A program made the position numbers and the translations under genes. Below, piece by piece: positions 58,902-63,809 of a DNA stretch of 64,000 nucleotides. The stretch lies in the NCBI RefSeq assembly GCF_004352855.1, contig NZ_SJSC01000003.1, positions 496,001 through 560,000 on the forward strand, given 5' to 3'. This DNA comes from Marinomonas sp. KMM3893 (lineage in GTDB: Bacteria > Pseudomonadota > Gammaproteobacteria > Pseudomonadales > Marinomonadaceae). The notes beneath the pieces were generated by a model. It ran no database searches and was not told the origin of the DNA. It saw nothing but the letters and a program-made list of their open reading frames with translations. Each line of letters begins with the position of its first letter. Positions within the stretch are counted from its first letter, which is position 1.

Positions 58902-60254
58902 CTATACTAAAAAAAGAGTGGCGAGACCAAGGAAGGCTAAGAAGCCAACAACATCGGTCACAGTTGTCAAAATCACACTGGCGGCTAATGCAGGGTCAAT
59001 ACCTAGCTTCTTCAGGAAAATAGGTAATAGCGTGCCAGTGAGGGCGGCAAACAAGAGATTTATGATTGTCGCGCTTGCAATGATATAGGCAATCTTTATG
59101 TTGTCAAACCAAAGTGCGGTTAAAGCGGCAATAACCGTTGCCCAAAGTATGCCATTTAGCAAACCGACGATCAATTCGCGGTTTAAAAGCCATCTTGTGT
59201 TGGTGGCACCGATTTGATTTAAGGCGATACCACGAATAACCAAGGTAAGTACCTGAGAGCCTGCTATGCCGCCCATGCTGGCAACGATGGGCATTAAAAT
59301 GGCCAGCGCGACCACTTGATCAAGTGTGTGCTGGAATAGCCCAATCACATAGGAAGCAATGAAGGCGGTAATTAGGTTGATGCCTAGCCAAACGGCGCGT
59401 CGTCTGGTGGTTTTTAAGATGGGGGAGAAGGTGTCTTCATCATCGTCTAGGCCTGCCATGCTGAGCATGGAGTGCTCCGCTTCATCGCGGATAACATCGA
59501 CCACGTCATCAATGGTGATGCGGCCTAATAATTTTCTGGTTTTGCTGTCAATAACCGGTGCCGAGACCAAATCCATTTTTTCAAACAGTTGTGCCACTTC
59601 GCTGGCAGGCGTTTCTGCGTCTATCACTGTGTTGTCGGTTTCCATGATGTCGCGCACGGTGGCGTTCACATCGGCTACCAAGAGTTTGGTGAGAGGCAGC
59701 GAGCCAAGCAGTCGATCAGAGCGACTAACAACCAGTAGGTTATCCGTCATGTCTGGAAGTTTGTTGTGGCGACGAAGGTAGCGGAAAACGATGTCCACTG
59801 TGATGTTCGGACGTATGGTAATGGTGTCCGTATTCATCAAGCCGCCAGCAGAGTCTTCTGAGTAGCTCAGCAGGGCTTCTACTCGTAACCTGTCTTGGCT
59901 TGACATGGAAGCCAGTACTTCTTTTACAACGGTTTCTGGAAGGTGTTGTAAAAGGTCGGCAAGGTCATCGCTTTCAAAGTGTTCGGAAACGGCAACGAGA
60001 CGCTCAGTATTCATGTTGCGCATGAATTGAACGCCAATGTCTTCGCTTAGGTATTGAAGAACATCCCCTTCATTTTTGGAATCGATTAGGTCCCAAAGTA
60101 ATTTACGTTCTTTTGGTGGGGAAGATTCCAGTAAACGGGCAACATCTTGAGCAGGTAGTGCACCGTTAAGGAGATAACGGATCTGCATGGTGGCACCGGA
60201 CTCTAGGGAGTCGGTGACCGTTTGAAGGTGGGCTAAGGTGGTTTGTTCTGGCAT
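58902..60254 (-). CDS. mgtE: Magnesium transporter MgtE
   Basis: MgtE is a Mg2+-gated channel for magnesium. The 450 residues show the N domain (about 15-130), two CBS domains (about 135-260) and a C-terminal membrane domain with five helices (about 285-448) containing PIVASMGGIAGSQ. All three modules are complete, so gating by cytosolic Mg2+ is expected. It follows ptsO after 8 bases. Confidence 0.95.
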   Translation of the reverse strand: MPEQTTLAHLQTVTDSLESGATMQIRYLLNGALPAQDVARLLESSPPKERKLLWDLIDSKNEGDVLQYLSEDIGVQFMRNMNTERLVAVSEHFESDDLADLLQHLPETVVKEVLASMSSQDRLRVEALLSYSEDSAGGLMNTDTITIRPNITVDIVFRYLRRHNKLPDMTDNLLVVSRSDRLLGSLPLTKLLVADVNATVRDIMETDNTVIDAETPASEVAQLFEKMDLVSAPVIDSKTRKLLGRITIDDVVDVIRDEAEHSMLSMAGLDDDEDTFSPILKTTRRRAVWLGINLITAFIASYVIGLFQHTLDQVVALAILMPIVASMGGIAGSQVLTLVIRGIALNQIGATNTRWLLNRELIVGLLNGILWATVIAALTALWFDNIKIAYIIASATIINLLFAALTGTLLPIFLKKLGIDPALAASVILTTVTDVVGFLAFLGLATLFLV

Positions 60255-60262
60255 GGCGATCC

Positions 60263-60532
60263 TTACTCGTCTTCGCCGAAGCGATCATTGATCAAGGTGA
60301 TAACCGCTTTGATGGCTTCCTCTTCATCTTCCCCGTTGGTTTTAATTTTGATCTCTGTGCCTTTGCCAGCCGCCAACATCATCATTGCCATGATGCTTTT
60401 ACCATCAACGTTGCGGCCATCTTTTTCAATGGTGATGTCAGAAGAGAAACGAGACGTTGTTTCTACCAGTTTGCCAGCTGCGCGCGCATGAAGGCCAAGT
60501 TTGTTAATGATGGTGATAGACTCTTCCAACAT
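60263..60532 (-). CDS. ptsO: HPr-family phosphocarrier protein NPr
   Basis: NPr passes phosphate from EI-Ntr to EIIA-Ntr in the nitrogen PTS. The 89 residues carry the phospho-acceptor His16 in LGLHARAAG and a Ser in VDGKSIMAMMML, the usual positions for the family. It is directly downstream of ptsN; rapZ, normally between them, is missing. An acidic tail (EDEEEA and GEDE) is notable. Confidence 0.93.
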   Translation of the reverse strand: MLEESITIINKLGLHARAAGKLVETTSRFSSDITIEKDGRNVDGKSIMAMMMLAAGKGTEIKIKTNGEDEEEAIKAVITLINDRFGEDE

Positions 60533-60542
60533 ACTCTTTCCT

Positions 60543-60992
60543 TTATAGTAATGAATCTAGTGCAATAAAGAGGGCGTCATTTGTTTCGGCCTCTCTTAAT
60601 GTGTTTAACACTTTTTCTGATTGTGCCAGTTCAGCAATTTCCGCCAGCGTGGATAAGTGTGCGTCACATTCTTGTGGTGGCACAATTAACGCAAAAACTA
60701 AATCGATTGGTTTTCTGTCGACCGCATCAAAGTCAATGGCAGATTGCAGCGACAAAATAACGACAGCGGTGTGATTGGCGCTTTCTAGGCGACAATGAGG
60801 AATGGCAATGCCATTACCAATGCCGGTGCTGCCTAGCTTTTCGCGTCCAAGTAAAGCTTCGTAGATTGCTTCTTTGTCACAATGGAGACGATTTGCAGCC
60901 ACATCGGCAACGCTTTCAAGAATGCGTTTTTTGCTCACAACGTCTTGTTTTGCAAAGACAAGGTCTGCTTTTATTAATGATTTTAATGGCAT
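60543..60992 (-). CDS. ptsN: PTS IIA-like nitrogen regulatory protein PtsN
   Basis: PtsN (EIIA-Ntr) is a regulatory phospho-acceptor affecting potassium transport, nitrogen and envelope stress in relatives. The 149-residue EIIA fold has the active His66 in GIAIPHCRLE. It starts 18 bases after the rpoN stop. The hpf gene normally found between rpoN and ptsN is absent. It is likely cotranscribed with rpoN and ptsO. Confidence 0.95.
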   Translation of the reverse strand: MPLKSLIKADLVFAKQDVVSKKRILESVADVAANRLHCDKEAIYEALLGREKLGSTGIGNGIAIPHCRLESANHTAVVILSLQSAIDFDAVDRKPIDLVFALIVPPQECDAHLSTLAEIAELAQSEKVLNTLREAETNDALFIALDSLL

Positions 60993-61010
60993 AAGAAGTA
61001 GTTGTCCGTA

Positions 61011-62489
61011 TTAAATCAATCGTTTTCGTTCATTAGAAGGAGGAATGTTCATTGCCTCACGGTACTTTGCAACAGTTCGTCGTGCTACTTGTATGCCTTG
61101 GTCCGCTAAAATAGTGGCTAGCTTGTTGTCACTCAAGGGCTTTTTGGCGGGTTCTTCTACCACCAATTTTTTGATCATGGCTCTGATTGCTGTCGAAGAG
61201 CATTCGCCACCAGAAGCGGTATTAACGTGGCTTGAGAAGAAGTACTTCAGCTCGAAAATACCTTTTGGTGCGTGCATGTACTTTTGTGTCGTCACACGCG
61301 AAATGGTGGACTCGTGCATGCCGACTTCTTCCGCGACATCGTGAAGTACCATGGGTTTCATGGCTTCTTCACCAAGTTCAAAGAAGTCGATTTGGCGATT
61401 TACGATACAGCTGGCCACTTTGAGTAGGGTCTCGTTGCGGCTTTGTAGGCTTTTCATAAACCACTTGGCTTCTTGCAAGGAGTTTTTGATGTAGGTGACG
61501 TCTTCTGAGGTGGAGGCTGTTGCGGCCATCGCAGAATAAGTTTCGTTGATCTTGACGGGCGGTAACGCGTCGTTATTTAACTCAACTTGCCAAACCCCAT
61601 TGCACTTTTTGACAGAGACATCTGGAATAACATAATCCGTGTCATCAGCGTCAATAATAGAGCCTGGTCGTGGGTTGAGTTGTTGAATCAGATCGACCAC
61701 TTCCTTCAATGACTCTTCTTTGAGCTTTGTTTTGCGACTTAATTGAGCAAAATCACGGTTGCCTAGTAAAGCCAGATGGTTATCGACTAGGTTGTAGGTA
61801 CTCTTATAAAGAGGGTGGTCGCGAAAGGCTTCTAATTGCACTAATAGGCAATCGCGTAAGTCAGTTGAACAGGCGCCAGCAGGATCAAAGCGTTGTAGTC
61901 TGTGTTGCACTGCCATGACTTCGTCGAGCTCAAGATCTTCAAGTTCGCTGGTTAGCGATTCCCAAATATCTTCAGGCGTAATACTGAGATAGCCGTCTGA
62001 TTGCACGCATTCAATGATGGCGTAAGCGATTTCAATGTCGCGATCTGACATGTGCGTTAGATTAAGTTGCCAGATCAAGTGATCTTGAATGCTTTCAGCA
62101 GGGGCGTTGCGACTTTCGTAGTCACTGTCACCTTCATAATTATTGCTGGAGCCGACGCTTGCTGCGGCAGAATTTTGGTAAGTATCGTCCCAATTGCTGT
62201 CAATGGAGAGCTCTGCTGGAATGCTGTCGGTCCACTCGGACTCAACGCGGGCTTCTTCACTGGCGTTCGCCTCGGTTTTTTTACTGGCTGCCTCTTCCTG
62301 TTCTCTCGTTGGCGCTTCTGAATGGGAAAAATCTTCATCATCAATTTCTAAAAGCGGATTGGATTCTAGAAACTCATGGATTTCCTGTTTCAGGTCTAAC
62401 GTAGAAAGCTGCAGCAACCGAATGGCTTGTTGCAGCTGGGGAGTCATGGTCAGTTGTTGACCGATTTTTAATTGCAGAGACTGCTTCAT
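61011..62489 (-). CDS. rpoN: RNA polymerase sigma-54 factor RpoN
   Basis: RpoN directs transcription at -24/-12 promoters with AAA+ activators, typically for nitrogen and flagellar genes. The 492 residues have region I (about 1-50, Gln/Leu-rich, MTPQLQQAIRLLQLS) and an acidic, variable region II (about 55-125). The core-binding region III follows, with the HTH and, near the end, the RpoN box ARRTVAKYR (469-477). It is downstream of lptB, as usual. Confidence 0.97.
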   Translation of the reverse strand: MKQSLQLKIGQQLTMTPQLQQAIRLLQLSTLDLKQEIHEFLESNPLLEIDDEDFSHSEAPTREQEEAASKKTEANASEEARVESEWTDSIPAELSIDSNWDDTYQNSAAASVGSSNNYEGDSDYESRNAPAESIQDHLIWQLNLTHMSDRDIEIAYAIIECVQSDGYLSITPEDIWESLTSELEDLELDEVMAVQHRLQRFDPAGACSTDLRDCLLVQLEAFRDHPLYKSTYNLVDNHLALLGNRDFAQLSRKTKLKEESLKEVVDLIQQLNPRPGSIIDADDTDYVIPDVSVKKCNGVWQVELNNDALPPVKINETYSAMAATASTSEDVTYIKNSLQEAKWFMKSLQSRNETLLKVASCIVNRQIDFFELGEEAMKPMVLHDVAEEVGMHESTISRVTTQKYMHAPKGIFELKYFFSSHVNTASGGECSSTAIRAMIKKLVVEEPAKKPLSDNKLATILADQGIQVARRTVAKYREAMNIPPSNERKRLI

Positions 62490-62564: not shown

Positions 62565-63290
62565 CTATAGACGGAAGTCGTCCCCTAAATAAACCTTTTT
62601 TACTTGCTCATTGTTGATCACGGTATCAGCATCACCTGAGGCGATTATTTTCCCATTGCCTACGATATAGGCTTTGTCGCAAATGTCTAATGTTTCGCGT
62701 ACGTTGTGATCGGTAATCAAAACACCAATGCCGCTTTCTTGCAGGTGTTTTATGATCAGTTTAATGTCGCCAACCGAGATGGGGTCAACCCCAGCGAAAG
62801 GTTCATCCAATAGGATGAACTTTGGGTTCATGGCAAGCGCACGCGCTATTTCCACGCGACGACGTTCGCCGCCAGAGAGTGCCATGCCTAAGTTACTGCG
62901 AATGTGGGTGACATGAAACTCGTTTAACAGGCCTTCTAGTCTTTCTTTCTTTTGTTCTTTTGACAGCTCTTTGCGCGTTTCTAAAATGGCGTAAATATTG
63001 TCTTCAACGGACATTTTTCTAAAAATAGACGCTTCTTGTGGTAAGTAGCCAATGCCTTTTTGCGCCCGCGTATGCATGGCGTTTTTGGTGATGTCTTGCC
63101 CGTCGATGAAGATGCCGCCGGCGTCATTCGCGACCATGCCAACTATCATATAGAAGCAGGTCGTTTTGCCTGCGCCATTTGGGCCGAGCAAGCCAACGGC
63201 TTGACCGGATTCTACAGAAAGAGAGACGTCTTTAACGACTTGTCTTTTTTTGTAGCTCTTCGCCAGGTTTTTTGCTTCTAAAAGGGCCAT
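62565..63290 (-). CDS. lptB: LPS export ABC transporter ATP-binding protein LptB
   Basis: LptB powers LPS extraction by LptFG from the inner membrane. The 241-residue ATPase has Walker [10 protein letters not shown] (36-44), a signature [15 protein letters not shown] and Walker [14 protein letters not shown], then a switch His in ITDHNVRE. The start is directly adjacent to the lptA stop. Confidence 0.97.
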
Positions 63291-63809
63291 CTATTTCTTT
63301 TTGCCTTCTTTTTCGTTGTCTGCTGGTTGTAATGTCATAGATACGCGCCCTGTGCCTTTTTTCTGGGCGTTAAAGGTGCCGGTGTCTATGTGGTAGAGGA
63401 TGTAATCGGCGGTGATCTTGTCGTCCATCTTATTGAGGTAGCCATTGCCAAAGATTTCCAATTTTGACGTGGTGACTTGATAGTCTATTTTATCCCCTCG
63501 ACTGATCATCATATTGCCGCTCCAGTCGATTTGCTGACTGAATTTTGCCGGTCCGCCTGTGGCAACCAGTTTGCTGAATTTCCGAGTTTTAGGGTCGGTT
63601 GTGACCTTCAGGTATTGAGCTTGTATCTCAATGGTTCCCTGTTTCACAAAGACATCGCCCTTGTAGGTCGCTTCACCTGTTTTTTGGTCTAAAAAGGCTT
63701 CGTTCGACTGTATTGTTAGTGGCTGACTTAAGTCATCAGGCAGAGCAAGGACTTGTTGGCTAATGATTAAGCTGGCCAAGAGTGCGCTGAAATTAATGAG
63801 TTGTTTCAT
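63291..63809 (-). CDS. lptA: LPS transport periplasmic protein LptA
   Basis: LptA forms the periplasmic bridge that carries LPS to LptDE. The 172 residues have a signal peptide (about 1-22, ending VLA before LPDD) and an OstA-like beta-jellyroll (about 30-155), with QSNEAFLDQKTGEATYKGDVF. A basic tail (about 165-172) follows. It lies directly upstream of lptB and overlaps the end of lptC by 17 bases. Confidence 0.95.
   Translation of the reverse strand: MKQLINFSALLASLIISQQVLALPDDLSQPLTIQSNEAFLDQKTGEATYKGDVFVKQGTIEIQAQYLKVTTDPKTRKFSKLVATGGPAKFSQQIDWSGNMMISRGDKIDYQVTTSKLEIFGNGYLNKMDDKITADYILYHIDTGTFNAQKKGTGRVSMTLQPADNEKEGKKK

Follow-up and report, generated by a model that had tools for sequence, protein, structure and literature searches.

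The rpoN Locus of Marinomonas Is a Genus-Wide Variant of a Known Operon without hpf and rapZ

Gene Content of the rpoN Locus in Marinomonas sp. KMM3893

The stretch of DNA analysed here, referred to as the window, comprises 64,000 nucleotides of the genome of Marinomonas sp. KMM3893 (3,752,246 bases, rated 100% complete). Named by their NCBIfam profiles, the genes on the minus strand of the window follow each other in the order lptA, lptB, rpoN, ptsN, NPr/ptsO, mgtE, and yjgA (table 1). The usual operon of the Gammaproteobacteria is rpoN–hpf–ptsN–rapZ–ptsO with lptAB upstream. The Marinomonas locus resembles it in encoding rpoN, ptsN, and ptsO on one strand with lptA–lptB upstream, and the downstream genes mgtE and yjgA are likewise found in many relatives, but there is no hpf between rpoN and ptsN and no rapZ between ptsN and ptsO. 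The first-pass annotation of this DNA had singled out positions 60533–61010, which correspond to ptsN and its two flanking gaps, and had described a tightly packed rpoN–ptsN–ptsO without a trace of either gene; the gap lengths are exactly those it had claimed, and gaps and profile names together confirm that both genes are missing from the locus. Because the gaps span only 18 and 10 bases, a remnant of hpf or rapZ can be ruled out at this site. The close spacing of rpoN, ptsN, and ptsO is seen directly, and the three genes are presumably cotranscribed. It should be noted that the ptsN product scores below the cut-offs of the NCBIfam equivalog models (NF008145, 131.2 bits; TIGR01419, 127.3 bits).

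Table 1.— Features of the rpoN locus in the window, with their profile matches.
Feature	Positions	Strand	Description	Profile match
lptA	63291..63809	-		NCBIfam TIGR03002, 113.9 bits
lptB	62565..63290	-	Next gene upstream of rpoN	TIGR04406, 402.9 bits
rpoN	61011..62489	-	Sigma-54, 492 aa	NCBIfam NF004595, 709.7 bits; TIGR02395, 498.3 bits
rpoN–ptsN gap	60993..61010	-	Exactly 18 bases; site of hpf in most relatives	
ptsN	60543..60992	-	EIIA-Ntr, 149 aa, His66 present	Pfam PF00359, 118.6 bits (cut-off 27)
ptsN–ptsO gap	60533..60542	-	Exactly 10 bases; site of rapZ in most relatives	
ptsO (NPr)	60263..60532	-	NPr, 89 aa, His15 present	TIGR01003, 106.4 bits (over cut-off); PF00381, 107.4 bits
mgtE	58902..60254	-	Magnesium transporter, downstream, 8 bases past NPr	TIGR00400, 295.9 bits

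The Compact Order Is Shared across Marinomonas

The genus was represented by 48 species genomes, and is the only one of its family among the genomes searched. The closest named RpoN loci among the matches listed are four from Marinomonas (78–84% identity), the next having 60%. All 47 Marinomonas loci obtained from the 48 genomes show the order lptB–rpoN–ptsN–NPr–mgtE, and tblastn gave no HPF or RapZ match at any of them. The ptsN–NPr gap measures 2–26 bases in all 47 loci and the rpoN–ptsN gap 10–19 bases in the 46 loci whose rpoN is intact; G026 is excluded from the latter range, its rpoN being split and its 405 bases counted from the premature stop. The locus outside the 47 is that of G018, a genome rated 99% complete and the only one of the 48 without an rpoN match. 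As the order is common to 47/47 loci, it is the norm of the genus and not a peculiarity of one genome; judged by the comparison with close relatives that the first-pass annotation itself had proposed, its reading of the locus as an oddity has to be abandoned. It is exceedingly improbable that the gene order of the window stems from faulty assembly or binning: We found no evidence in support of this, and the same junctions recur in 47 assemblies of the genus, seven of them listed as single contigs. The split rpoN of G026 (L093, contig 45) consists of two frames, reflecting either a sequencing error or a pseudogene.

Outside the Genus, hpf Is Often Missing from the Locus but rapZ Is Not

For comparison we used the best 80 named loci by similarity to the RpoN of the window among the matches listed, a set that is not a random sample. 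Within it, the compact arrangement is found in 4/4 named Marinomonas loci and in 0/74 informative loci from other genera. All 74 non-Marinomonas loci of this set that are long enough to show rapZ contain it; L130 and L165 end after hpf and were left out of this count, reducing it from 76 to 74. The gene hpf is present at 68 of the 76 non-Marinomonas loci among these best 80, whereas the remaining eight encode rapZ without hpf, and a pass of the HPF profile over these eight loci was also empty. With 8/76 loci lacking hpf and 74/74 retaining rapZ in this set, the absence of hpf from the rpoN locus is ordinary, whereas the absence of rapZ is rare. The Marinomonas locus is a real, genus-wide variant of the known operon, of which the hpf half is commonplace and the rapZ half is a lineage-specific loss.

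RapZ Is Absent from Marinomonas Genomes

Profile searches detected neither the N-terminal domain of RapZ (0/48) nor its C-terminal domain (0/48) in the Marinomonas genomes, that of the window included, with every first-look candidate scored against both domain profiles. The same two profiles both match in 6 of the 14 control genomes, among them E. coli and the distant Thermus and Lactococcus. The possibility that Marinomonas does encode a RapZ, too diverged for detection or split, gains something from the existence of a trimmed RapZ within the order (the C-terminal domain only, in G418). Yet both profiles remained empty in 48/48 genomes while detecting controls as far away as Thermus and Lactococcus, and we consider a hidden RapZ very unlikely. 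Rather, the sequence data point to an old, clean, and genus-wide loss of rapZ. The first-pass annotation had expected that a lineage norm would combine the compact order in all close relatives with hpf and rapZ elsewhere in the genome; this was borne out for the order and for hpf, but rapZ was found nowhere in the 48 genomes.

In a sample of the order, for which at most nine first-look candidates were scored per genome, the N-terminal domain was found in 356 of 390 genomes; 18 of the 34 negatives are Marinomonas, and outside the genus the count is 356/372. Of the 16 non-Marinomonas genomes without the N-terminal domain, 14 of which were identified from the gaps in the numbering of the positive genomes, two carry the C-terminal one: G418, and G228 with a match that starts at nucleotide 38 of a contig. 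The other 14 show neither domain, two of them (G049 and G108) being less than 90% complete. Four of the 14 (G174, G121, G278, and G349) have ptsN followed by NPr without rapZ at the locus, and only G174 also lacks hpf there.

G174 belongs to another family of the order and resembles Marinomonas in its compact rpoN–ptsN–NPr–mgtE arrangement, in the absence of hpf and rapZ at the locus, and in that RapZ was not found in its genome; it differs in a ptsN–NPr gap of 97 bases and in an HPF of another type. Since the C-terminal domain is retained in 8/8 other tested genomes of its family, the loss of rapZ in G174 looks separate from that in Marinomonas. A single loss shared by both is not favored in view of this retention, but it keeps some probability, as the RpoN tree leaves G174 on an open fork. 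The RpoN tree requires seven changes of RapZ label, only two of them forced by well-supported branches. We leave the losses uncounted because the 40 rows of this tree were hand-picked, few changes are forced, and G418 is labelled as lacking RapZ despite its C-terminal domain.

Three observations from genomes negative for the RapZ N-terminal domain may be added. The contig 118 of G418 (L035/L212) encodes, between ptsN and NPr, a 129-aa protein whose only RapZ match is to the C-terminal domain (PF22740, 117.7 bits), the N-terminal one being missing. G399 (family f40), a genome of 2.4 Mb rated 100% complete, gave no match for the RapZ domains, RpoN, or HPF. G321, where neither RapZ domain was detected, has two copies of rpoN (L039 and L046, on contigs 2 and 3), each with hpf and ptsN.

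HPF Proteins Are Encoded at Other Sites

The distinction between loss and relocation was rightly raised by the first-pass annotation, and the genome-wide search that it had proposed separates the two genes: rapZ has been lost (0/48 genomes for either domain), whereas HPF-family genes lie elsewhere (48/48). The genome of the window, where neither RapZ domain was found, encodes two HPF-family proteins on other contigs, of 105 aa (C1:331090) and 130 aa (C10:271711). Both contain a Ribosomal_S30AE domain (PF02482, 83.7 and 61.6 bits; cut-off 23.7), and with scores of 84.2 and 60.1 bits against TIGR00741 (cut-off 40.9) they are predicted members of the HPF/YfiA ribosome hibernation family. Across the genus there are one to three such proteins per genome, 101 matches in total; HPF is not lost from Marinomonas, family members being present at other sites.

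We distinguish three types by score. Type A (78 bits and over), the 105-aa type with a yccA-like neighbor, is found in 35/48 genomes or about three-quarters of the genus; type B (53.5–64.1 bits), the 130-aa type, in 48/48; and the divergent type C (46.4–53.1 bits) in about 18/48, that of the window not among them. These counts rest on score bands, those of B and C nearly touching. Of type A, 30 of the 35 loci were read, with a common upstream gene in 30/30 and the yccA-like neighbor in 29/30; for type B, nine of 48 loci were read, with an asd-like neighbor in 6/9. We assigned the names yccA, asd, and leuB by reading the sequences and not by profile. Type C was missed by a two-sequence profile and was read at the positions of the Pfam matches; at the loci L248–L255, seven of the eight read encode the tail YEEYENEYGYY.

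A phylogenetic analysis of 56 hand-picked HPF proteins, 30 of them rpoN-linked and 11, 9, and 3 of them of types A, B, and C, joins types A and B (support 95/91) within the region occupied by rpoN-linked HPFs; the alignment has 105 columns, and the program flags A and B as long branches, which are possibly joined falsely. The two types arise from an open fork together with many rpoN-linked HPFs and three extra copies (G174, G218, and G295), and type C branches apart. The simplest reading, and a likely one, is that types A and B represent the hpf of the operon, moved and duplicated. Their descent from the operon gene is unproven, as extra copies that are not rpoN-linked leave the same open fork, the columns are few, and the branches are long.

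Alternatively, the operon gene may have been lost outright, the present HPF genes being older paralogues or acquired. G174 illustrates that such an exchange occurs: The only HPF found in this genome (64.5 bits) groups with extra copies from two relatives, G218 and G295, whose rpoN-linked copies (105 and 101 bits) fall elsewhere, and the operon hpf of G174 seems to have been replaced by an extra copy. The low scores of type B in Marinomonas and the openness of the fork that gives rise to A, B, and the extra copies agree with outright loss as well. Against it, A and B pair with each other and not with the extra copies, and the HPF equivalog model gives each of them a higher score than the RaiA model does (84.1 vs. 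56.2 bits for type A, 54.4 vs. 28.3 bits for type B, all under the cut-offs). We regard outright loss as the less probable course, though one with a real chance, and retain the moved and duplicated operon gene as the preferred origin of types A and B.

The Nitrogen Phosphotransferase System and glmS Appear to Be Retained

His66 of PtsN, whose role as phosphoacceptor is taken from the family, is present in 47/47 Marinomonas rows and 72/72 outgroup rows, and so is the phosphoacceptor His15 of NPr (47/47 and 72/72). The outgroup consists of 77 loci, which gave 73 PtsN and 72 NPr sequences, rows outside 80–200 aa being left out. At every position that is conserved in at least 90% of the outgroup, the commonest residue in Marinomonas is identical. 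The median identity to the window within Marinomonas is 70% for PtsN, 84% for RpoN, and 87% for NPr, and in the outgroup 41%, 56%, and 55%, respectively; as the outgroup medians show the same pattern, nothing is concluded from the lower conservation of PtsN.

PtsP, or EI-Ntr, is an enzyme I with an additional N-terminal GAF domain. In the genome of the window, a 767-aa open frame, of a length that fits PtsP, matches enzyme I at 464.6 bits (cut-off 341.7), and enzyme I matches over the cut-off, regarded as putative PtsP, were obtained in 3/3 Marinomonas genomes tested, this one included. By its putative PtsP and the histidines of NPr and PtsN, the PTS-Ntr relay appears to be kept in Marinomonas. 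The gene glmS was found in 2/2 Marinomonas genomes tested; the copy in the genome of the window follows a glmU-like frame, recognized by eye.

Probable Origin of the Compact Locus and Its Proposed Link to Amino Sugar Supply

We think it probable that rapZ was lost and hpf departed in an ancestor of the genus, leaving PtsN and NPr as the link of the locus to amino sugar supply. The Marinomonas ancestor would have had the usual rpoN–hpf–ptsN–rapZ–ptsO operon. Before the genus diversified, rapZ would have been deleted between ptsN and ptsO, never to be regained, and hpf would have left the operon, the HPF genes at other sites most likely stemming from one moved and duplicated hpf; we infer the order and date of these events. 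What was left behind rpoN would be the end of a phosphorelay from PtsP via NPr to PtsN with its histidines intact, and the locus would now act on amino sugar supply through PtsN only, the sensing of glucosamine-6-phosphate (GlcN6P) by RapZ being absent.

The published functions cited here come from enterobacteria. PtsN of Salmonella inhibits GlmS directly (PMC5024086), and PtsN and RapZ, both products of the rpoN operon, have been proposed to balance amino sugars jointly (PMC5024086; review PMC13104625). In RapZ of E. coli, the C-terminal domain binds GlcN6P and, by itself, also RNA, while directing RNase E takes both domains (PMC7073468, PMC5737377). Compared with the Salmonella rpoN operon and its control of GlmS by PtsN, Marinomonas is alike in having PtsN, NPr, a putative PtsP, and GlmS; it differs in lacking RapZ. 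By analogy, PtsN is most likely the only remaining link of the operon to GlmS; a takeover by PtsN is an analogy because the role of RapZ is established only in enterobacteria. A genus-wide rewiring of the amino sugar economy, with PtsN as the sole sensor-effector of the operon on GlmS, goes further, and we consider it rather unlikely. If true, Marinomonas would be a natural rapZ deletion that exposes a RapZ-independent arm and the role RapZ had before the enterobacteria.

The first-pass annotation had also held that the loss or relocation of the two genes matters through GlmS and the supply of cell-wall precursors. Both genes are truly gone from the locus, but this consequence was carried over from E. 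coli, and PMC7073468 reports the RNA-binding tail of RapZ, along with GlmY/GlmZ, to be restricted to the Enterobacteriaceae. A GlmS defect in Marinomonas is not a safe inference, as RapZ control of GlmS has been described in enterobacteria. The same paper suggests that, in an older role, RapZ may have controlled a two-component system (PMC7073468). The literature regards RapZ as belonging to the logic of the rpoN operon, and Marinomonas keeps the neighboring phosphorelay without it; the 48 RapZ-less species genomes and the further RapZ-less lineages provide a natural set for studying RapZ function where GlmY/GlmZ are not known. A literature search that covered few subscription journals found no publication joining RapZ with Marinomonas; Marinomonas does occur together with ptsN and rpoN in PMC3162934, which names the genus once, in the context of type VI secretion.
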